This document shows, in pieces, positions 51,998 through 63,716 of a DNA stretch of 64,000 nt (position 1 is the stretch's first letter; every line of letters starts with the position of its first letter). Source of the stretch: a virus. The DNA lies in the IMG/VR virus record IMGVR_UViG_3300032093_000099, positions 1-64,000 of that record, one strand, 5' to 3'. The position numbers and the translations under genes are program-made. Below the pieces are notes generated by a model. The model saw nothing but the letters and a program-made list of their open reading frames with translations, was not told the DNA's origin and made no database searches.

Positions 51998-52019
51998 CAA
52001 TTTCATTCCTTACAGTTTA

Positions 52020-52048: not shown

Positions 52049-52420
52049 ATGTTGTCATATAACGACTTTATTGCAGAAGGAAAAAAAGCAACCGAAGTTT
52101 CGGGAAGAGTGATGACTACGAACAGCAATCCGCAAGCATCAATCAACCACTCCGATGAAACTATCGAAGGTCTTCGTCGTCGTCTGATCGATGTTTACTT
52201 TAAGAAATCTGAAGACAAAAAAGTTAGAGACGAAATGAACAAGTGCATATCCACATACGTATACGCGCTCGACAAAAAACTCAGGATCAGTTCAGACATA
52301 GTCGATAGGTTGGCAAAAGCAGCAGAAGAAACCAGCGAAGAAACTATGAAAGTTCTTACAAAAGAGACTGAGAAATTCTACGGTGATGAAAAACCTAACC
52401 ATTACGGAACAACAGCATAA
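52049..52420 (+). CDS. Capsid-targeted internal protein (CTS), unknown body
   Basis: A 123-residue protein. Its N-terminus MLSYNDFIAE|GKK is the closest in the window to the T4 tag MKTYQEFIAEA, with an I-A-E cleavage site before Gly. After removal of 10 residues the body is hydrophilic and helical ('IEGLRRRLIDVYFKKSEDKK'), with no membrane segment or Cys. The size and charge resemble T4 internal proteins, which are packed in the head and injected. It is the first gene after an AGATATATAG box. Confidence 0.6.
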   Translation: MLSYNDFIAEGKKATEVSGRVMTTNSNPQASINHSDETIEGLRRRLIDVYFKKSEDKKVRDEMNKCISTYVYALDKKLRISSDIVDRLAKAAEETSEETMKVLTKETEKFYGDEKPNHYGTTA

Positions 52421-53259: not shown

Positions 53260-54594
53260 ATGAATCTACTGAAATATCAAGACTTCCTAATTAAGGAATC
53301 GCAAAGAACATCTTTAGTCGAACTAATGAAGCTCGACGAAGAAGCAGGCTTGTATGATGCACTAAATGAAGGTGGCGCGTACGGACACTTGGCGCATCCT
53401 TTTGAAGACATCGGTCTGACTATGCAAGACGTCAAAGATATGATAACTTCTGCAGTCAGCGGTGCTTTCGGTCCTGAGAACTTTGTCCAAGAAAAGACCG
53501 ACGGGCAACAGCTGTCAATTACATGGAAAGACGGAGAAGTCAGAGCCGCAAGGAATAAAGGTCAGCTCAAGAATTTTGGCAAAGATTCACTATCAGCGGC
53601 TGGAATCGCGAGCATGTTCGCTGGAAGAGGCGATATAGAAATAGCTTTCAACGCAGCGATGAAGGATCTAGGCGCATCTATTGGCTCTCTATCTGCCGCT
53701 GACAAGGAAAAGTATTTTGGCAACGGCAAAAAGTTTGCCAGCATAGAAATCATAACACCGGTTACACAAAACACTGTTCCCTACGGACAGAACATGTTGG
53801 TGTTTCACGGAGTTGTAGAATATGACGAAAATGGAAATGTCATAGGTGAAGACAAGCAAGCAGGTCGTGACTTAGGTAAGTTGATCGCAGAAGCAAACGC
53901 AGCGGCTCAAGAAACTTTCTTTGTCCGCGGACCGCAAGACATTGCTCTCCAACCGCTTCCCAATACAAAAGCTCGTCAGTCTTACTATGAGTCTTTGCTG
54001 AGCAATATCATGAAAGAAAGCGGCACCAACTTTGCATCTTCAATCGAAGAATACGCTTTGGGAAATGCAAAAAGGATCCTCCAGGAGCTTGCGGCCAAGA
54101 GCAAAATAAATATACCGTCAGAGTATCTTGATGCGCTTGGCAAGCGTGTAGCTGGTATCGACAAGTCATTCACGGCGCCGCAGATCAAAAAATCGCTCGA
54201 GCCAGCGGCGGCAGACTGGTTCATCAACCTGGAGAAATCTCAAGAGAAAGAACTCAGAAAACGAGTGTACCAACCTCTTGAAGCAATCTTCTTAGAGCTG
54301 GGAACGGAAGTCATGAAGAACGTATCTTCTTTCTTGTCAGCAAATCCTACGCAGGCTGCTGAATCAATGAGAAAAGAAATCGACGGAGTGATCAGCAAGA
54401 TTCGCAAAGACGGCGGAGAAGCAGACGTCAAGAAAATGGAATACGAACTGGAGAGAGTCGCAGCAGCTGGCGGTTTAGACGCAATCGTCCCGACCGAAGG
54501 AATCACATTCCTATACAAAGGCAAGCTCTACAAGTTTACAGGAATCTTTGCACCTTTACACCAGATCCGTTCAATACTTGCTTACAAAAAGTAA
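53260..54594 (+). CDS. Capsid-targeted ATP/RNA-ligase-like nucleotidyltransferase
   Basis: A 444-residue protein. The N-terminus MNLLKYQDFLIKE|SQR carries an I-K-E site, and 'DALNE|GGAYGHLAHPFED' adds a second (L-N-E|G, residue 37). The core has signatures of the covalent nucleotidyltransferase (ligase) superfamily: motif I 'EKTDGQQ' (Lys79 as the expected adenylated Lys), a 'ASIEII' strand (160-165), 'MLVFHGVVEY' (about 179-188) and a C-terminal 'EGITFLYKG' (413-421) plus 'LYKFTG' (motifs IV/V). It could seal DNA or RNA or transfer AMP to another target. The substrate is unknown. Packaging would deliver it at infection. Confidence 0.65.
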   Translation: MNLLKYQDFLIKESQRTSLVELMKLDEEAGLYDALNEGGAYGHLAHPFEDIGLTMQDVKDMITSAVSGAFGPENFVQEKTDGQQLSITWKDGEVRAARNKGQLKNFGKDSLSAAGIASMFAGRGDIEIAFNAAMKDLGASIGSLSAADKEKYFGNGKKFASIEIITPVTQNTVPYGQNMLVFHGVVEYDENGNVIGEDKQAGRDLGKLIAEANAAAQETFFVRGPQDIALQPLPNTKARQSYYESLLSNIMKESGTNFASSIEEYALGNAKRILQELAAKSKINIPSEYLDALGKRVAGIDKSFTAPQIKKSLEPAAADWFINLEKSQEKELRKRVYQPLEAIFLELGTEVMKNVSSFLSANPTQAAESMRKEIDGVISKIRKDGGEADVKKMEYELERVAAAGGLDAIVPTEGITFLYKGKLYKFTGIFAPLHQIRSILAYKK

Positions 54595-54600
54595 AAAGAG

Positions 54601-54891
54601 ATGAAACACATACACACATTTGAGAACTTCTTAAACGAGTCGGAACACATGTCTGTCAACGAATTTGAGACTTCGCTGAATGAACTTAGACTTACATCTG
54701 CTGGTGTAAAAGAGTTGCTTACAGCAATTTATTACAACTGGGATAAAATCAAAGACAAGATTCGCCAAGAGTATTACTTCAAATCGTTTAAAGATGTCAT
54801 GGAATTTCTACTGACCGGAGATCAAGAAGAAATGGAAGAGTTGGAAAATGTCGTAAAAAAATTCGGAGTCGAAATACTAAAATTGAAATAA
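54601..54891 (+). CDS. Capsid-targeted small protein (CTS)
   Basis: A 96-residue protein with the canonical tag MKHIHTFENFLNE|SEH. 'MSVNE' (residues 17-21) and 'TSLNE' (24-28) lie close behind and might be further trimming sites. The mature part of about 70-80 residues is helical ('VKELLTAIYYNWDKIKDKIR') and slightly acidic at the end. No family is recognised. It starts 6 bases after the ligase-like gene and is followed 4 bases later by another tagged gene with a near-identical start. Confidence 0.6.
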   Translation: MKHIHTFENFLNESEHMSVNEFETSLNELRLTSAGVKELLTAIYYNWDKIKDKIRQEYYFKSFKDVMEFLLTGDQEEMEELENVVKKFGVEILKLK

Positions 54892-54895
54892 GTCA

Positions 54896-55204
54896 ATGAA
54901 ACACATACCATCATACGAAAACTTTTTGAACGAAGGCAACGATTCCGAAATGAAAGAATTTAAGACCAAGCTCGACAGACACGATTGGTACTACATGATG
55001 TCCGACGATAATCGTGTCTATACTCGTGGATCAGCCGAGGCTGATGAACTTGGCAAGATGATCAATAAGATCGGCAAAGAAGCGGAAGACTTGTACATAA
55101 AAGCTTACAAAAAAATGTTTCCGCACTCGAACTACACACCTAAGATTCTTAAAAACGAGAATGACAGATATGCAACATTTGCAGAAGTAAAAAACATGAG
55201 ATAA
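54896..55204 (+). CDS. Capsid-targeted small protein (CTS)
   Basis: A 102-residue protein beginning MKHIPSYENFLNE|GND. The body is charged and rich in Tyr/Met ('HDWYYMMSDDNRVYTR') with a helix 'KMINKIGKEAEDLYIKAYKK'. No catalytic motif is recognised. The tag resembles that of the preceding gene, but the bodies differ, so the tags were shared or conserved while the cargo diverged. Confidence 0.6.
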   Translation: MKHIPSYENFLNEGNDSEMKEFKTKLDRHDWYYMMSDDNRVYTRGSAEADELGKMINKIGKEAEDLYIKAYKKMFPHSNYTPKILKNENDRYATFAEVKNMR

Positions 55205-55205
55205 A

Positions 55206-55448
55206 ATGGAAAACAACCAATTCCCTACATTCGAAAACTTTAGAGAAGAAACCAAAGCCAACGAAGCGATGGTCCAGGTCGCAGGAAAAAGCAAACCGTC
55301 GGGTGCAACAGTACTTGCGACAGTCATCGTTGACTATATGATCAACAACAATTTGATCAACACAGGTGCAATCGACGTTAAAAATCGCATTTCTCGCAAA
55401 GAGCTTGTTGATACCGTTAAAGATATCATCATGGACAGTACGTTCTAA
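55206..55448 (+). CDS. Small protein with degenerate CTS
   Basis: An 80-residue protein, MENNQFPTFENFREE|TKANE|AMVQ. 'PTFENF' keeps the core F-E-x-F of the tag, but the hydrophobic residue before x-E is replaced, so the cleavage position is uncertain. The remainder ('GATVLATVIVDYMINNNLIN') is a compact helical segment followed by 'ISRKELVDTVKDIIMDSTF'. It sits between a tagged gene and the ferritin gene. Confidence 0.5.
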   Translation: MENNQFPTFENFREETKANEAMVQVAGKSKPSGATVLATVIVDYMINNNLINTGAIDVKNRISRKELVDTVKDIIMDSTF

Positions 55449-55463
55449 AAACAACACATCATA

Positions 55464-56030
55464 ATGCAAGAATTCAATTCATTTAGAAAAACAAAGTCAG
55501 GCAAGCTCAACGAAGCGATTGACTTTGGCACATCACCGGTCAAACCAAAGACAGTCGCTCCTGAAGTAGAGACTATGTTGAACGCCAGACTCGGTGACGA
55601 GTACACCGCGTACTTCTTTTACAGAAATGCTGCCAACTGGTGCAAGAACGCCAACTACAAGAAAGCCGCTGCATTCTTTAACGCAGAAGCAGACGGAGAA
55701 CTTGGTCACGCTCAAGGAATCCAAGATTACTTGACTCAGTGGAACCTCATTCCCGCGATTCCTCAAGTACCTACCGCGCTAAACTTTGGCGGATTGGTCG
55801 AGATCATCAACAAGGCATACGATCTAGAGTACAACTTGCTTCTTAAGTATTCTGAAGACCAAAAGATGTTGCTCGACAAAGATCCGGCTACATTCAATTT
55901 CATTCAAAAATACGTCGACATTCAGAACGGTGAGGTAGAAGAATACTCTGACTATCTAAACTCTCTTGAGTTGGTGAACCCCAACAACAAATTCGAGGTG
56001 CTTTACTTTGAGCAGACTTACTTTGGCTAA
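55464..56030 (+). CDS. Ferritin-like iron-storage protein with capsid-targeting N-terminus
   Basis: A 188-residue protein whose residues about 34-188 align from memory along the full bacterial non-haem ferritin (FtnA) four-helix bundle. Ferroxidase ligands are retained: Glu46 (FtnA E17), Glu79 and His82 (E50, H53), Glu122 (E94), Gln154 (Q127) and Glu157 (E130); Tyr53 matches Y24. The third iron site appears lost (E49, E126 and E129 positions are Gly, Ile, Gly). The first 17 residues, MQEFNSFRKTKSGKLNE|AID, form an extension with an L-N-E|A site. Ferritins oxidise Fe2+ with O2 or peroxide and store Fe3+. Packaging could protect DNA or help infection under oxidative stress. Confidence 0.85.
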   Translation: MQEFNSFRKTKSGKLNEAIDFGTSPVKPKTVAPEVETMLNARLGDEYTAYFFYRNAANWCKNANYKKAAAFFNAEADGELGHAQGIQDYLTQWNLIPAIPQVPTALNFGGLVEIINKAYDLEYNLLLKYSEDQKMLLDKDPATFNFIQKYVDIQNGEVEEYSDYLNSLELVNPNNKFEVLYFEQTYFG

Positions 56031-56039
56031 ACATCATTA

Positions 56040-57473
56040 ATGAGTGATCTTAAACTATACGAAGAATTTGTGCAGTCTCTCTTAGAAGAGGAAAAGATCC
56101 TTGTAAGAAATAAAAAGTCGGGTGCTGTCTACGACATCAATCAAAAAAGTTTCAATCCTAGTAAACACGAAGTGCCAAAACCTAAAGAGATTGATAAAGC
56201 TGAGAAAGAAGTAGAAAAAAAGGCAGAGAAAAAAGGATCATCGCACAATCTTAGTAAATCTTCGATAGATAACGCCAGAAATCAATCTAACAAAATCGAT
56301 GGTCTCTTAAAAGATGCTGATGATGACACAAAAGAAAGAGGGAGAATTGTTAAAGAGCAGTTTAATAAGTTACTTAATGCTAAGTCTGAAGAAGAAGAGG
56401 TAGAAGCAATACAAGTTTTGATCGACAATAATCTAATACAAGGTCACTCAGGCGGAACTAAAATTTATATGTCGCCTAACACTCTTTTGCCAAGAAAGTT
56501 CTTTGCAGGAGAACAAGGAAACTCTTTGACAAAAAGAATGAATGCAGTAATTGCCAAACATAATCTTCCTATAGAAATTCGGCAAAGCAGTGCAGATAGA
56601 ACTCTGGCAGACACAAGTGGAAAACACAATGAGGCTGGTGTAGTTGCATATCTGTATGATAGTCCTGAAAACAAAAAGGCATATGAGGAACTACAAAAGA
56701 AATTCACAGATCTTGGCGGAGGTGACGAAAAAAGGTATGATGAGATCAACCGAGAAGTTGCTGAGATGATTAAGAATTCTTTACCGCCTGGATCAAAGAT
56801 AACAGGTGCCGAACAATTAGGAGGAAATGATGAAGCATCTATGGCGCGAAAAGCTGCTCTTGGTCTTAAGCCGAAAAGTAAAGTAGATTATGTAGTCCAT
56901 TACAAGGACAAAGATGGCAAAGATCAAATGATGAAAGTCACCGCCAAAACATACAGTGACCCAAGTAAAATTACTATGGAGAACTCGGGCGCGGTTAAAG
57001 CAGGAGAAAAGTTTTTAGGCAAAGATCTTGGCGAAAAGGTAGATAAAAAATACCAAGAACTCTGGGCGAAATATAAGTGGGACGATACCATGTCCGACAA
57101 AGAAAAGCGAGATAGAAAAACCGCATTAAAAAAGGAATACCTTCAAGAATTTGAGAAGGCCATGCAAGAGTTGGCAAAAACCAAAGAAGGACAAAAACAA
57201 TTGACACAAATGTGGAGGGATGTTCACGGTTGTGATGAAGATCTTTACGCGCAGATCATCAATAAAAAAACAGGCGAGAAAAACTTACACCCACCTGGCC
57301 ATTATTGTAACCCAGGTCCCCCGTTTAAGATAAAATACGATGGAACAAAAATGGTCGTAGATGTTGGAGGAAGTGAAGGAGACATGGAGATAGTTCTAAA
57401 AACAGAAGATACCAAATCGCCCAAAGTTTTAATAAACCACGTAAAAAGAAAAAAGAAAAAAGACGATAAATGA
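56040..57473 (+). CDS. CTS-like protein with possible PD-(D/E)XK nuclease core; A/T-rich
   Basis: A 477-residue protein. The start MSDLKLYEEFVQSLLEE|EKI is a divergent tag. 'ILVRNKKSGAVYDI' and a long Lys/Glu linker follow. Residues 198-303 hold Glu198 ('KHNEAGVVAYL'), Asp283 ('KVDYVVHY') and Lys303 ('KVTAKTY') in the order and spacing of a PD-(D/E)XK nuclease; this is a pattern guess. 'HGCDEDLYAQIINKKTGEKN' and 'HPPGHYCNPGPPFKIKYDG' lie near the C-terminus. Hand counts on four 60-base lines gave about 32-38% G+C, against 45-50% in three lines of neighbouring genes, suggesting recent acquisition. Confidence 0.55.
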   Translation: MSDLKLYEEFVQSLLEEEKILVRNKKSGAVYDINQKSFNPSKHEVPKPKEIDKAEKEVEKKAEKKGSSHNLSKSSIDNARNQSNKIDGLLKDADDDTKERGRIVKEQFNKLLNAKSEEEEVEAIQVLIDNNLIQGHSGGTKIYMSPNTLLPRKFFAGEQGNSLTKRMNAVIAKHNLPIEIRQSSADRTLADTSGKHNEAGVVAYLYDSPENKKAYEELQKKFTDLGGGDEKRYDEINREVAEMIKNSLPPGSKITGAEQLGGNDEASMARKAALGLKPKSKVDYVVHYKDKDGKDQMMKVTAKTYSDPSKITMENSGAVKAGEKFLGKDLGEKVDKKYQELWAKYKWDDTMSDKEKRDRKTALKKEYLQEFEKAMQELAKTKEGQKQLTQMWRDVHGCDEDLYAQIINKKTGEKNLHPPGHYCNPGPPFKIKYDGTKMVVDVGGSEGDMEIVLKTEDTKSPKVLINHVKRKKKKDDK

Positions 57474-58012
57474 AACACATAAGAACATTCGACGGGTTTC
57501 TCTATGAAGGATTCATGAGTTCGCTGGATCTCATCGCGCAAGACGCAAAAGATCTCGCAGACTTTAAGAAAAAAGCAAAGAGAGACTTTCCGCAGATTGC
57601 AAAGCTCGAAGGCGCCGATGAGTGGCTTGAAGAAATTTATAGCCAAGCAATCAAAGAAAGCGTAAATGAAGCTATTGACCTCAATGATCCAGTGCTTGTT
57701 GCTTTAAGAGCGTCTAAAGAAGACAGGACAAAGAAAGCCGCTGCTCAAAAAGAACGCATGAAAAAGCGCGTCTATGGAAAACAAAGAGAAAAACTTGAAG
57801 TTGATCTTTGGACAATTTCTATAGATCTGAAAGATGCTTACGCAGAAAGAAGAGACATCTACAATAATATGGAATCGGAAGCTGGCGAAAAAGGAGATGA
57901 TTGGAATGACGCTGATGCTAACCGCTACGGCAAACTTTTAAATGATGTGGATTCAAAAATTGAAACTTTAATCAAAAAGAGACAAGAAATCGAAACAAAG
58001 CTTGCATACTAA
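57470..58012 (+). CDS. Capsid-targeted coiled-coil protein (CTS)
   Basis: A 180-residue protein starting MKHIRTFDGFLYE|GFM. A second candidate site lies at about residue 64 ('KESVNE|AIDLNDPVLVALR'), again V-N-E before Ala. The part beyond it is a highly charged helical region ('ALRASKEDRTKKAAAQKERM') and a C-terminal coiled coil with basic and acidic heptads. The body suggests an internal or core protein rather than an enzyme. It overlaps the previous gene by 4 bases (ATGA) and the next by one (TAATG). Confidence 0.6.
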   Translation: MKHIRTFDGFLYEGFMSSLDLIAQDAKDLADFKKKAKRDFPQIAKLEGADEWLEEIYSQAIKESVNEAIDLNDPVLVALRASKEDRTKKAAAQKERMKKRVYGKQREKLEVDLWTISIDLKDAYAERRDIYNNMESEAGEKGDDWNDADANRYGKLLNDVDSKIETLIKKRQEIETKLAY

Positions 58013-59046
58013 TGAAACACTTGCTTACACTGGAATCCTTTTTGGAAATGCGAGAGCTATCAAACATTGATGACTGGGCATTGGACGAAAGTCTTAACGA
58101 AGCAGCAGGAATTGATGCAATCAAGCTCAAAAGCGAAAAGTCGGGCAGAAAGATCAAACTGACTTCTGCTCTGAAATATCCTAAAGGATCACCTACTAGA
58201 AAACAGGCCGAAGAAATTGTAGATGCTTTAAGAAAGAAGCAGACCAAAATCGAAGACAAGCCCGAATCTGAAATAGAATACGTCAAAGGCGATGAAGACC
58301 TTAAGAAGCTCATGCCCAATGCAGACGTTACCAAAAAGTTGCTTAGTGAAATTCCAGCAGAGGAAAAGAAAGATGCAATCACTGCGATCGACAAAATTGC
58401 AGACGAGATAATGACCGCCAAAGAAGAGGGTCGCCCAGTACAAAATACCAATCTGTGCTCGGTAACAATTCCTGGTACTAACATGTATTGTGATGCCAAC
58501 AAAAACATTCCTCGTGAAAAAATGCCCCAGTTTCGCGGCAAGCCTGAAAAAGGTTCGGCTGCTGACAAGATGCCTCGAGACAGCAACGGTGAAGTAGAAA
58601 CATCACACTTATTCGACAAGATGCTCGACAAAGAAGGCATTAAGATATCCAAGCCTACAGAGATCGACGCTTCCAGCCTCAAGGCAACACAAGCAGAACT
58701 CGTAGGTCCTAAAGTGGTAGGCATGACAAAGGTGCTCGCTAAGAACTGTGAAAAAGACAAGTGCAGCCCTGATGAAATGAAAGACTGGAACAACATCACA
58801 GGTCCTGTCTATGTTTCAAACGACGGATACGTAGTTGACGGTCACCACCGTTGGGCCGCGATTGTTTCACATAACCTCAAGAATCCAGACAAACAGATTC
58901 CTATGAAGGTCCGTGTAATTGACGACAAGATCGACAGCATCATACCTAAAGCCAACAAGTTTGCCGAAGACATCGGAATTGCCGCTAAGACAGGTAAAGA
59001 AGGCACCAAAGGTGGAGAACCTGCTGCACAAACCAAAAAGAAATAA
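58012..59046 (+). CDS. Capsid-targeted ParB/sulfiredoxin-like protein
   Basis: A 344-residue protein. The start MKHLLTLESFLEMRE is a variant tag; a clean L-N-E|A site occurs at residue 30 ('DESLNE|AAGID'). At about 266-290 'PVYVSNDGYVVDGHHRWAAI' matches the ParB/Srx fold, where D-G-x-H-R binds nucleotide (G-x-x-R-x2-A in ParB CTPases). A Cys-containing segment 'CSVTIPGTNMYCDANKN' at about 149-165 is unassigned. ParB-like domains can be CTPases, nucleases or phosphotransferases, so the activity cannot be fixed. Confidence 0.6.
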   Translation: MKHLLTLESFLEMRELSNIDDWALDESLNEAAGIDAIKLKSEKSGRKIKLTSALKYPKGSPTRKQAEEIVDALRKKQTKIEDKPESEIEYVKGDEDLKKLMPNADVTKKLLSEIPAEEKKDAITAIDKIADEIMTAKEEGRPVQNTNLCSVTIPGTNMYCDANKNIPREKMPQFRGKPEKGSAADKMPRDSNGEVETSHLFDKMLDKEGIKISKPTEIDASSLKATQAELVGPKVVGMTKVLAKNCEKDKCSPDEMKDWNNITGPVYVSNDGYVVDGHHRWAAIVSHNLKNPDKQIPMKVRVIDDKIDSIIPKANKFAEDIGIAAKTGKEGTKGGEPAAQTKKK

Positions 59047-59052
59047 TTAGTC

Positions 59053-59415
59053 ATGTACTACATACACACATACGAGTCTTTCATAAATGAAGCGGAAGAC
59101 ATAGGTACGCAGAAAAGTGCCGCTCTCGATTTTGTCGAGAAAAAAGGAAAAGCTACATGGAAAGAAATACATTCTTTCTTGATGAAGAACAAAGGTTTTG
59201 ATCCAGCTGAATACGGCAACCGAGGCAATATGTCTTCGTACTTTTCAGGCGGAGGTTATGCTATCATAGCAGCAGCCGATGCTAAGTCGGGCAGAAGTGG
59301 CAAAACACACGGGTTGTTGATGGTTCCTACAATGAAAGATCCAAGATATCTTGACAAACAAGAAGACGGAACTTACGTCGTTAAAGTATGGGACAAGAAA
59401 AGCAAACTTGTGTAA
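59053..59415 (+). CDS. Capsid-targeted small protein (CTS)
   Basis: A 120-residue protein, MYYIHTYESFINE|AED, with a textbook I-N-E|A site. The body looks like a small winged-helix or similar α/β fold: 'ALDFVEKKGKATWKEIHSFL', then 'YFSGGGYAIIAAADAK' and a C-terminal β-hairpin 'GTYVVKVWDKKSKLV'. A DNA-binding role is possible by resemblance only. It is flanked by tagged genes with 3-6 base gaps. Confidence 0.55.
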   Translation: MYYIHTYESFINEAEDIGTQKSAALDFVEKKGKATWKEIHSFLMKNKGFDPAEYGNRGNMSSYFSGGGYAIIAAADAKSGRSGKTHGLLMVPTMKDPRYLDKQEDGTYVVKVWDKKSKLV

Positions 59416-59418
59416 AGA

Positions 59419-59949
59419 ATGAAATACGTCAAGACATACGAGAACTTTTTGTATGAAGCCAAGCAAGTAGGCACTGTTTATCACTACACTACGATATTGG
59501 CGCTTCTCAAAATTCTTGATGATGACGTATTAGGAGACAAGTCTTTAGGCAAGTACGCAAGAGTATCATTAACTCGAGACAAAAACTTTCAAAAGAGAAC
59601 CCGGATCATACCTGCCGAATGTAGAATTACGATTGATGGCAATAAGCTATCTAACCGCTATAAAGTTCAACCGTATCAATGGAATGCCTCTCATTTTAGC
59701 GGAAAGGCAGCCACTAAAGGCGGAGAAATTGAGGACCAGATGGAAGAAGAGGTACAAGGTTACATTACGGGAATCACAAATTACATCCAAAAGATTGAAC
59801 TGTTTGAACTTGAGTTGGATCCGCTCCCTTTTGATGAAGACTTTACATTAGAAGCAAGCAAGATAATCGACAAGCCGTCTGATGAAATTAACCAACAAGA
59901 CATAGTTGACTTCATCAAAAGACACGTAAAAGACACTAAAGTAATATGA
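59419..59949 (+). CDS. Capsid-targeted putative ADP-ribosyltransferase-like protein
   Basis: A 176-residue protein, MKYVKTYENFLYE|AKQ. Directly after the tag, 'GTVYHYTTILALLKILDDDV' resembles the H-Y-T/S...IL start of ADP-ribosyltransferase-like toxins (DarT- or RNA 2'-phosphotransferase-type folds). 'ARVSLTRDKNF' (47-57) follows at the usual distance of the S-x-T-R-D strand. An acidic 'DQMEEEVQGYI' (107-117) could hold the catalytic Glu. T4 packages the ADP-ribosyltransferase Alt with a CTS, so the same logic is attractive here. The family call is tentative. Confidence 0.5.
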   Translation: MKYVKTYENFLYEAKQVGTVYHYTTILALLKILDDDVLGDKSLGKYARVSLTRDKNFQKRTRIIPAECRITIDGNKLSNRYKVQPYQWNASHFSGKAATKGGEIEDQMEEEVQGYITGITNYIQKIELFELELDPLPFDEDFTLEASKIIDKPSDEINQQDIVDFIKRHVKDTKVI

Positions 59950-60485
59950 AGTACATAAAGACATTTGAAGACTATCAAGTCTCTGAAGGGTTTCGCTACC
60001 ACATGGAGAACGGATTGGATATCACCAACTCGGTTTTTCGTATAGGAAGCGATGCTTACAAACAATTGTTCGAAGAGACCAAGAAATACTGGGATGAAGG
60101 CAACATCATCCTAAAAGACAAAGCCGCTTGGATGGCTAAGAATCTGGAAGTTGGCACTAAAGCTAAATTCAAGTCAGACGATGGCAAGATGCTCGATGTA
60201 GAGTTAGATACTCCAACTAGAGGTGGAGACAAAAAGTTCCAAGTATACCACAACAGCGGCAAGAAAGACGACGATGGCAACATCATCGCCTTCAAAATCG
60301 AATGGGGAGACACAAGTGGCCTAAGCATCAAGAACGACGATCCAGCAGCTGCTGCTAGTTTTTGGGCAAGACAGCAATGTGACACCAAAGGAAGAATGGA
60401 TCCATCGAAACCTGGTTTCTGGGCCTGCTACGCGCCTTCTCTGTTCGGCAAACAACTGGGTTTGAGCTCGGATCAGCCCTGGTAA
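59946..60485 (+). CDS. Capsid-targeted protein with C-terminal PSKPGFWACYAP motif
   Basis: A 179-residue protein starting MKYIKTFEDYQVSE|GFR, with a V-S-E|G candidate site. The middle is a β-rich 'VGTKAKFKSDDGKMLDVELD' module that looks SH3-like. The C-terminus contains 'ARQQCDTKGRMDPSKPGFWA' followed by CYAPSLFGKQLGL, a conserved-looking Cys/Pro/Trp motif. No name is assigned. It overlaps the preceding gene by 4 bases and ends the first continuous run of tagged genes. Confidence 0.55.
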   Translation: MKYIKTFEDYQVSEGFRYHMENGLDITNSVFRIGSDAYKQLFEETKKYWDEGNIILKDKAAWMAKNLEVGTKAKFKSDDGKMLDVELDTPTRGGDKKFQVYHNSGKKDDDGNIIAFKIEWGDTSGLSIKNDDPAAAASFWARQQCDTKGRMDPSKPGFWACYAPSLFGKQLGLSSDQPW

Positions 60486-60747: not shown

Positions 60748-61335
60748 ATGAAAAGATTCTTACTTCCAATACTTTCGCTGGTCATTCTCGCCAGCTTCGT
60801 GCTTCCAAGCAGCCTCAGAGACAATGTTACCGTCAAGACTGACATGTACACAGTCGTCTACTCAGAAATCTTGGAACAGCCTAAGAGAGTCGAATACAAC
60901 GTACAGTGCACAGAGACTAAGTTTTCCCGTGACGGTCTTGACTTCTATACATGTGACAGCATTAAGACTTCTGACAATGCCGACTACGCAAATAACGAAT
61001 ACGACAAAGGACACATGGCACCAGCTGCCGACTTTGCTTGTGACAAAGACAAACTTAAGAGAACTTTTTCGTATCTCAACTGTGCTCTACAACAAGAGAA
61101 CTTAAACCGCGGAGTCTGGAGATTCTTAGAAGTCAGAGAAAGAAACCTCGCCAAAGTTGCTCCCACCAAAGTAGTAATCGAGGTACACTTTAGCAAATCT
61201 TCAAAGAAACTTCCTACGGGTGCCACCATACCTGACGGATTCACCAAGACGATCACATCGGGAAACGTAAAGGAAGTCTACTACTTTCCAAACATTAAAC
61301 CTATTAAGAAATCTTACAGTGACTACAAACTCTAA
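60748..61335 (+). CDS. Secreted DNA/RNA non-specific endonuclease (NUC-type)
   Basis: A 195-residue ββα-metal nuclease with an N-terminal signal peptide (about 1-21, 'FLLPILSLVILASFVLPSS'). The catalytic motif is 'YDKGHMAPAADF' (D86-K-G-H89, His89 as general base; the usual form is DRGH). It is followed by 'SYLNCALQQENLNRGVWRFL' with the metal-binding Asn111 and conserved Asn120, and Glu128 just after. These enzymes cut any DNA or RNA. Export to the periplasm would spare phage DNA in the cytoplasm and could destroy incoming or released DNA. The gene starts a new unit after the terminator. Confidence 0.85.
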   Translation: MKRFLLPILSLVILASFVLPSSLRDNVTVKTDMYTVVYSEILEQPKRVEYNVQCTETKFSRDGLDFYTCDSIKTSDNADYANNEYDKGHMAPAADFACDKDKLKRTFSYLNCALQQENLNRGVWRFLEVRERNLAKVAPTKVVIEVHFSKSSKKLPTGATIPDGFTKTITSGNVKEVYYFPNIKPIKKSYSDYKL

Positions 61336-61594
61336 CACAAGACCGTTCGACGAAAGCCGTCTAAATGATATCATAATCAGGCGTTTCTTACCCACGGTTG
61401 ATGAATCAGAGTTGAAGTGGCACTGGGACGAACAAGAAAGAATCATAGAACCCTTGAATCAAAACGATTGGATGTTCCAATTCGACAATGGACTTCCATT
61501 CCCAATTAGAGAAAAGATAAATATACCAGCCGGCGTTATACATCGAGTGATCAAAGGATCAACGGACCTGGTCATAAAAATTAAAATGATATGA
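61319..61594 (+). CDS. Small cupin-like protein
   Basis: A 91-residue protein that overlaps the nuclease gene by 17 bases. 'LKWHWDEQERIIEPLNQNDW' and 'INIPAGVIHRVIKGSTDLVI' match the two halves of a minimal cupin barrel (H-x-D/E..., then P-x-G-x-x-H). The motif-1 His/Glu and motif-2 His could bind a metal. Substrate or structural role is unknown. The next gene's ATG overlaps its stop (ATGA). Confidence 0.6.
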   Translation: MTTNSNTRPFDESRLNDIIIRRFLPTVDESELKWHWDEQERIIEPLNQNDWMFQFDNGLPFPIREKINIPAGVIHRVIKGSTDLVIKIKMI

Positions 61595-62256: not shown

Positions 62257-62835
62257 ATGAAGCACGTCAAGACTTTTGAAAGCTTCATATTCGAAGCGGC
62301 CGGAAACGATGTAGTATTCTTTCCTGGTAGATTCCAGCCTTTTCACAAAGGTCATCTTGCCGCTCTTAAGAGAACAGCCGATGTTTTTGGAAAACCCGTC
62401 GTTGCCTTGCAGATCGTATCAGCCAACGAAGATTCTCCGTTTCCTGATTCTTTGCTCGCCAAGATGGCTAAAGACGTCGTTCGTTACAATTCTTTCATCA
62501 AGGATTTTCAGATCTATCCTCAAGGCAGAAAGACAGTGATTCCTTTGATGGTCCGATTCCTCAGAGAGGAAGGATATGAGCCTTACGGTCTTGGTGCCGG
62601 TGCGGATCGCATGAAAGACTATCAGCGCCAAGTTGAATACATCACCGGTCCTAAGACCGACACTCCGGTAGATCCTTCGTTTTCTGTCAAACTCGTAGAC
62701 ACTCGAGAAGGAGACGGTCCCAGCGGTACCAAAGTTCGCCAGGCTCTTAAAGATGATGATCGCGCAGCTTTTAACGATCTGATGCCTAAAGAACTTCACA
62801 AGTACTTTGATGAACTCAAAAAATACATCAAGTAA
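62257..62835 (+). CDS. Capsid-targeted NMN-adenylyltransferase-like enzyme
   Basis: A 192-residue protein. The tag MKHVKTFESFIFE|AAG is followed at once by the nucleotidyltransferase α/β core: 'VVFFPGRFQPFHKGHLAALK' (19-38) with H-x-G-H (30-33), and 'GPSGTKVRQAL' (154-164), equivalent to the ISSTxVR motif that grips ATP. This is the layout of NadM/NMNAT-type and related cytidylyltransferases, which make NAD+ from NMN and ATP (or CDP compounds). Phage NAD-restoring enzymes counter host NADase defences, so early delivery from the capsid would make sense; that is inference. It is coupled to the next gene by TAATG. Confidence 0.75.
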   Translation: MKHVKTFESFIFEAAGNDVVFFPGRFQPFHKGHLAALKRTADVFGKPVVALQIVSANEDSPFPDSLLAKMAKDVVRYNSFIKDFQIYPQGRKTVIPLMVRFLREEGYEPYGLGAGADRMKDYQRQVEYITGPKTDTPVDPSFSVKLVDTREGDGPSGTKVRQALKDDDRAAFNDLMPKELHKYFDELKKYIK

Positions 62836-63716
62836 TGAAATACGTTAAACTATTTGAGCAGTTCGTCAACGAAAGCGGAAACGCAGTCGACAATGTTCGT
62901 CCTATCAAACAAGACGAAGTAATCGACACTGCCAAATGGGTAGAGAAAGAAATCTTCCCACAGATCGGCCTGACTGCTCTTGAAGACGATGCTGCTGTGA
63001 TAGGTTCAGCCGGCAAGAAATTGCCCGACCAAACAAGCGGAGACATCGACATTGCTGTTTCTGCCGACAAGATCGCAGGTTTTTTGGGAGTACCTGTCCA
63101 AAACACACTCTTTGCGTTGAACGACAAACTCAAATCATTGGGCTACCAAACCAAAATGATGCCAGGTTTCAACCAAGTCAGCATCGCAGCACCCGTCGGA
63201 GGCTACGCTTCTCGCGGTTACGCACAGGTAGACTTTATGATTTCTACCGACCTAAACTGGAGTCGATTCATATACCATTCGCCAGACTTTAGGACGGCCG
63301 AATCAAGGTACAAAGGAGCTTACCGCAACTTGTTGCTGATGGCAGCAATCGGCAAGTCATTCTTTGAAGTCACTAAGAAGACCGACGCTGGAGAGACCGC
63401 AGAGTTTCAAGCGTATGTGGTTCGTCTAAATCAAGGAATCGTCCAAGTAAGAAAATCTTTCGAAGGTAAGAAAGGACTTCTTAAGACGGCTGCTCTTCTC
63501 AAAGATTACGACAAGTTCGTGACGAACACACCCGAAGCAGTAGTAGAATTGCTTTTCAAAGGCAAGCACACACCTAAAGACATAGACACATACGAAAAGT
63601 TGAAAAGCTTGATCGATTCGACCGACTTCAAGTATCCTGGCGCAAGGTCTGACATCTACCAAGACTTCGAGCAAAAGCTGGAAGACGCAAAACTTCCGAT
63701 GCCAGAAAACTTGTAG
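62835..63716 (+). CDS. Capsid-targeted pol-β-type nucleotidyltransferase
   Basis: A 293-residue protein, MKYVKLFEQFVNE|SGN. The nucleotidyltransferase signature is present: 'AVIGSAGKKLPDQTSGDIDI' (G57-S58, then D70-x-D72) and the third carboxylate in 'AQVDFMI' (Asp133). Family members transfer NMPs to RNA ends, proteins or antibiotics (tRNA nucleotidyltransferases, MNT toxins/antitoxins). The C-terminal 130 residues are helical. With the NMNAT-like neighbour, two nucleotidyltransferases of different folds appear as adjacent cargo. The target is unknown. Confidence 0.7.
   Translation: MKYVKLFEQFVNESGNAVDNVRPIKQDEVIDTAKWVEKEIFPQIGLTALEDDAAVIGSAGKKLPDQTSGDIDIAVSADKIAGFLGVPVQNTLFALNDKLKSLGYQTKMMPGFNQVSIAAPVGGYASRGYAQVDFMISTDLNWSRFIYHSPDFRTAESRYKGAYRNLLLMAAIGKSFFEVTKKTDAGETAEFQAYVVRLNQGIVQVRKSFEGKKGLLKTAALLKDYDKFVTNTPEAVVELLFKGKHTPKDIDTYEKLKSLIDSTDFKYPGARSDIYQDFEQKLEDAKLPMPENL

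Follow-up and report, generated by a model that had tools for sequence, protein, structure and literature searches.

Bacteriophage T4 fills its head with internal proteins that are mainly anti-restriction and host-modifying in function, and its protease gp21 cuts at a hydrophobic-x-E motif. In the T4 genome (AF158101), IPI starts with MKTFKEFTSTTTPVSTITE/A (MKTFKEF...ITE/A; here and below the slash marks the cut site), and both IPII and IPIII start with MKTYQEFIAE/A. T4 capsid-targeting leaders (CTS) are 10–19 residues long, with targeting residing mainly in residues 4 and 7 and processing in residues 8 and 10 (review, PMC9026906). T4 packages fusions of the CTS or of IPIII to β-galactosidase, GFP and nuclease and delivers them to the host; its leader-bearing proteins are expelled along with the DNA, and leader-GFP apparently refolds in the host (PMC9026906). 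Phages also carry genes of the ferritin superfamily, namely those for Dps and Mn-catalase in Lactobacillus phages and the 'Gratiaviridae' (PMC8008677). Both halves of the system described here are thus known already; their combination was not found in the literature searched, and no description of a capsid-targeted ferritin was found by that search, which left out subscription papers and preprints.

The window analyzed here comprises the first 64,000 nucleotides of the virus record IMGVR_UViG_3300032093_000099, a 68-kb fragment of a huge T4-like phage. One of its open reading frames (ORFs), 55464–56030 on the plus strand, encodes 188 residues and is by sequence and predicted structure the gene of a ferritin of the FtnA (24-mer) type, predicted to oxidize iron. 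The gene is common to relatives of this phage. Its product divides into three parts:

55464–55514, plus strand: putative capsid-targeting leader MQEFNSFRKTKSGKLNE, residues 1–17, with F4, F7 and L-N-E/A (T4 IPI layout, motif conservation)
55515–55559, plus strand: linker AIDFGTSPVKPKTVA, residues 18–32, the predicted new N terminus after cleavage, preceding helix A at residue 33 (sequence)
55560–56027, plus strand: ferritin domain, helices A–E (Pfam, FtnA alignment, 37 relatives, AlphaFold, VIA-align)

The ORF matches the Pfam Ferritin family (PF00210) at 6.1e-20, and its best sequence match in the PDB is E. coli FtnA (7e-15). The AlphaFold model is a five-helix ferritin (pLDDT 91.4) with helices A–E at residues 33–62, 66–92, 111–136, 141–168 and 176–186. 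It superimposes with VIA-align on E. coli, Vibrio and human ferritins over 156–164 residues (Z 22.4–23.1, rmsd 1.3–1.9 Å), and the match to 24-mer ferritins spans residues 27–188. Helix E, a feature of 24-mer assembly, is predicted, and the alignment runs to the last residue. The earlier note, written from the letters and translations, had described a complete fold with six ferroxidase ligands, and the structural comparison with these ferritins (Z about 23) and the FtnA alignment agree.

A gap-by-gap alignment places E46, E79, H82, E122, Q154 and E157 on FtnA E17, E50, H53, E94, Q127 and E130. The first five are invariant in 37 phage ferritins with identities down to 37%, and the sixth position is Glu in 9 and Ser or Ala in 28. 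Human H ferritin likewise has no acidic residue at the E130-equivalent position, so the ligand pattern fits an H-type ferroxidase center. The third iron site, which the note had considered lost, is indeed gone: G78, I153 and G156 stand in place of E49, E126 and E129 of FtnA site C. Site C is a feature of FtnA and is not demanded of H-type ferritins. Because of this loss, and because the NCBIfam FtnA model PRK10304 gives 54.5 bits, below its cut-off of 178, we assign the protein to the wider ferritin family and not as an FtnA ortholog.

Residue 3 of FtnA falls on residue 32 of the phage protein, leaving ∼29 additional N-terminal residues. The ATG at 55464 is the sole start codon before helix A, so this extension must be translated. 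As the note had observed, it ends its first segment in L-N-E/A: the leader, MQEFNSFRKTKSGKLNE/A, has 17 residues, comprising F4 and F7, a linker and a hydrophobic-x-E/A site at L15-N16-E17/A18. It therefore has the length (10–19 residues), the key residues 4 and 7 and the cut-site motif of a T4-type CTS. Residues 1–14 have pLDDT below 50 and are predicted to be disordered.

Two scans of viral contigs for ferritin gave 19 and 64 loci, with contigs partly shared, from which 40 distinct ferritins (less than 90% identical in the compared core) were used for motif analysis. Their N-terminal extensions vary in length and sequence, and most keep both ends of the leader; examples are MKTFDNF...VNE/A, MKTFQTF...INE/A, MKTFDNFRKKDSVNE/A, MKTFQTFKENGITINE/A and MEDFKNF...AVNE/G, and another clade starts with MSNKLNNLNE/I and MKTKLKSLNE/L. 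The motif [LIVM]NE occurs in 20 of the 40 extensions, whereas shuffling yields a mean of 2.35 and a maximum of 8 (0 of 2000 shuffles reach 20); these are, however, related sequences and hence not 40 independent trials. Position P3 of the cut-site motif is non-hydrophobic in several relatives (TNEG, NNNEA). Since the motif is kept while the surrounding extension varies, selection on the leader is favored. Synonymous codons differ at the conserved positions, which indicates that selection acts on the protein sequence; a DNA-level repeat as the source of the shared leaders was ruled out on the same ground.

Ferritin N termini are also closer to those of neighboring genes on their own contig than to those on foreign contigs (4 of 5000 permutations; mean z 0.52), while two controls gave no significant result. 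The effect is modest, and the ferritin of the window ranks poorly in it (21 of 37). Many genes in contigs L074, L076, L088 and L092 carry a leader of a second type (MIKLIDILKE or MKLRQLLNE); the ferritins there start with MxxKLxxLNE, and the L076 ferritin is untagged. The ferritins of L076 and L079 have no leader despite tagged neighbors, so packaging is not universal. In L099 neither the ferritin nor its neighboring genes carry a leader, and L083 and L101 encode further untagged ferritins.

The ferritin gene of the window sits amid about 12 genes with similar leaders, in keeping with the tagged surroundings reported in the note. The leader pattern was found in 11 of 18 non-overlapping ORFs after position 52,000 and in 1 of 37 before it; tagged genes at 54896 and 55206, masked by an overlapping antisense ORF, were found in addition. 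The block contains, besides the ferritin:

52049–52420, plus strand: tagged protein MLSYNDFIAE/G.., conserved in the L003 contig (leader pattern)
53260–54594, plus strand: tagged 444-residue protein MNLLKYQDFLIKE/S.., conserved in relatives (leader pattern)
54601–54891, plus strand: tagged protein MKHIHTFENFLNE/S (leader pattern)
54896–55204, plus strand: tagged protein MKHIPSYENFLNE/G (sequence)
55206–55448, plus strand: tagged protein MENNQFPTFENFREETKANE/A, with a looser leader (sequence)
56040–57473, plus strand: tagged protein MSDLKLYEEFVQSLLEE (leader pattern)
57470–58012, plus strand: tagged protein MKHIRTFDGFLYE/G (leader pattern)
58012–59046, plus strand: probable tagged protein MKHLLTLESFLEMRELS.., with a weak ParB-like match, missed by the strict pattern
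59053–59415, plus strand: tagged protein MYYIHTYESFINE/A (leader pattern)
59419–59949, plus strand: tagged protein MKYVKTYENFLYE/A (leader pattern)
59946–60485, plus strand: tagged protein, conserved neighbor of ferritin in 13 of 39 loci (leader pattern, neighbor screen)
61319–61594, plus strand: untagged small cupin-like protein, conserved neighbor of ferritin in 12 of 39 loci (cupin by sequence motif only)
62257–62835, plus strand: tagged nucleotidyltransferase, NMN-adenylyltransferase-like, MKHVKTFESFIFE/A
62835–63716, plus strand: tagged protein MKYVKLFEQFVNE/S (leader pattern)

Most of the tagged neighbors matched no named family in Pfam, PHROGs or NCBIfam. The 59946–60485 family has a basic C-terminal domain (RGGxKKF.VYV...ARHxC) and carries the leader in several contigs, among them that of the window; the 61319–61594 family is small and untagged, with the motif WHRDxEDR...HRVIKG. 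Both occur within a few kb of ferritin in distant contigs (L003, L046, L074, L081, L088 and others), and the two families may form a module with ferritin. The NMN-adenylyltransferase-like protein (62257–62835), if it is a packaged NAD-making enzyme, would be notable against NAD-depleting defenses. Amid the tagged genes, 60748–61335 encodes a nuclease of Endonuclease_NS type (Pfam 1e-20) that has no leader; its N terminus is hydrophobic and signal-like.

The 68-kb source record contains neither a gp23-type capsid gene nor a gp21-type protease gene. A related contig of 238 kb is colinear with the window: 42 of the 55 window ORFs are matched in it, and the leader pattern occurs in 27 of its 312 ORFs, against 2.4 in shuffles. 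Two tagged clusters are seen there, one at 61–78 kb around the ferritin gene and one at 174–185 kb, the latter adjoining a gp23-type capsid gene (187 kb) and a gp21-type protease gene (191 kb). The capsid proteins of these contigs contain HSLNE/S, HSLNE/G or HSINE/N, with LNE/INE conserved at residues 41–43. An alignment with T4 gp23 gave no positional match between this LNE and the T4 cleavage site, and the idea of an exact positional homolog was dropped. Because of this misalignment, the conserved LNE/INE is no more than suggestive as a candidate cleavage site, and an upstream IxE in the same proteins also fits as a cut site. In L031 (2–1192) and L032 (5–1207), the gene before the capsid protein encodes many tandem Y.EYLAENLD repeats, each with LAE/N, as expected for a scaffold cut at many places.

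Considered together, the IPI-like layout of the leader, its conservation within variable extensions and the tagged clusters beside capsid and protease genes make it very probable, as judged from sequence, that the ferritin is capsid-targeted cargo of some kind. The earlier note had the ferritin addressed to the capsid: the address is borne out at this level, and packaging, cleavage, ejection, cage assembly and benefit to the phage are what we infer from it. We propose that the leader, through F4 and F7, would bind the scaffold core during head assembly, with ferritin subunits or small assemblies becoming enclosed in the prohead. A gp21-type protease would cut after Glu17 to give a 171-residue ferritin starting AIDFGTS, with a predicted N-terminal peptide starting AIDFGTSPVKPK, and the trimmed protein would be held among the packaged DNA. 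It would then be ejected with the DNA into the next host, like the T4 internal proteins, most likely in the form of subunits, unfolded or dissociated, that would refold there into a ferroxidase-active cage. Such a cage could take up Fe2+ before phage gene expression, lowering Fenton damage or limiting iron to host enzymes; a role of this kind in the host, whether Fe2+/peroxide removal or iron withholding, is suggested by the ferroxidase center. To this reading, a ferritin ejected with the DNA and functional in the new host, we assign a probability of roughly 0.6.

An intact 12-nm ferritin cage cannot pass a phage tail tube. Ejection would therefore need subunits, and the version with injected subunits fits the T4 precedent better than a cage in the head. 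The same constraint bears on a reading in which the packaged ferritin works inside the virion, where assembled cages, perhaps iron-loaded, would shield the DNA against Fe2+ and peroxide or supply the next host with iron: a cage of that size could not exit through the tail. Ferritin N termini face outwards, so a preformed cage would still expose its leaders. The whole subunit, helix E included, can be aligned with 24-mer ferritins. T4 moreover packages IPIII-β-galactosidase fusions (PMC9026906). However, the leader-bearing proteins of T4 are ejected, not used in the head, and the sequence gives no sign of iron loading, and we consider function within the virion unlikely. That virions hold assembled, iron-bearing cages among the packaged DNA, as a mineral-storing compartment in the virus head, seems less likely than that.

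The untagged ferritins of L076, L083, L099 and L101, together with the ferritin-like enzymes reported in other phages (PMC8008677), would suit an ordinary, unpackaged enzyme that handles iron or peroxide late in the infected cell, the leader and tagged neighbors then having another cause, for example gene shuffling or a sorting signal of an unrelated kind. Such an enzyme does not readily explain why the leader follows the layout of T4 IPI and has been kept where the rest of the extension varies, and the synonymous codon variation speaks against mere DNA shuffling; we hold it to be less probable again. The loss of the third iron site and the Ser or Ala at position 157 in most relatives could instead point to an inactive protein of ferritin fold that is packaged as a filler or in a scaffold-type role. 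This is the least probable of these readings, and a very improbable one, given that all 37 sequences, with identities down to 37%, keep five of the ferroxidase ligands and that human H ferritin also does without an E130 equivalent. If the preferred reading, a packaged and ejected ferritin, is correct, phages would also equip the cell with metal and redox control ahead of any phage gene expression, and a naturally evolved means of placing ferritin into a virus head would exist. The leader rule would also make other cargo of huge phages readable from sequence.

Among viral sequences, the uncultured Caudovirales ferritins A0A6J5MFB8 and A0A8D9C9X5 (UniProt/BFVD) share the fold, the former being a fragment that is 42% identical to the window ferritin over its length. 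No ferritin relatives were found in cultured phages at usable E-values, and no bacterial relatives were confirmed in two genome scans. Lak and other huge phages (LR756500) have relatives of the adjacent helicase gene and of some tagged genes, and at the thresholds used their records yielded no ferritin. In a fold search, several proteins of uncultured Caudovirales annotated as 'Prohead protease' or as long 'Dps' (A0A6J7WIS1, A0A6J7WPK9, A0A6J7XDU5) gave weak ferritin-fold matches, a hint that Dps-like domains fused to prohead proteases might be another route of ferritin-type proteins into heads. Phage Dps and Mn-catalase are likewise ferritin-superfamily genes in phages, but they belong to other families and have no capsid-targeting leader reported in the available text of PMC8008677.

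With E. coli FtnA and human H ferritin, the phage protein shares the fold, helix E and the ligands E17, E50, H53, E94, Q127 (and E130) at 17–27% identity in the structural alignment, and it differs from them in its 29 extra N-terminal residues, the lost site C and a shorter C terminus. With T4 IPI, IPII, IPIII and Alt it shares an N-terminal leader, aromatic residues at positions 4 and 7 and a hydrophobic-x-E/A cut site, and with IPI in particular the long-linker layout. In contrast to these T4 proteins, the cut-site consensus in the ferritin phages, read here from sequence alone, is [LIV]NE, and the cargo is a ferritin instead of a small restriction inhibitor or an ADP-ribosyltransferase.
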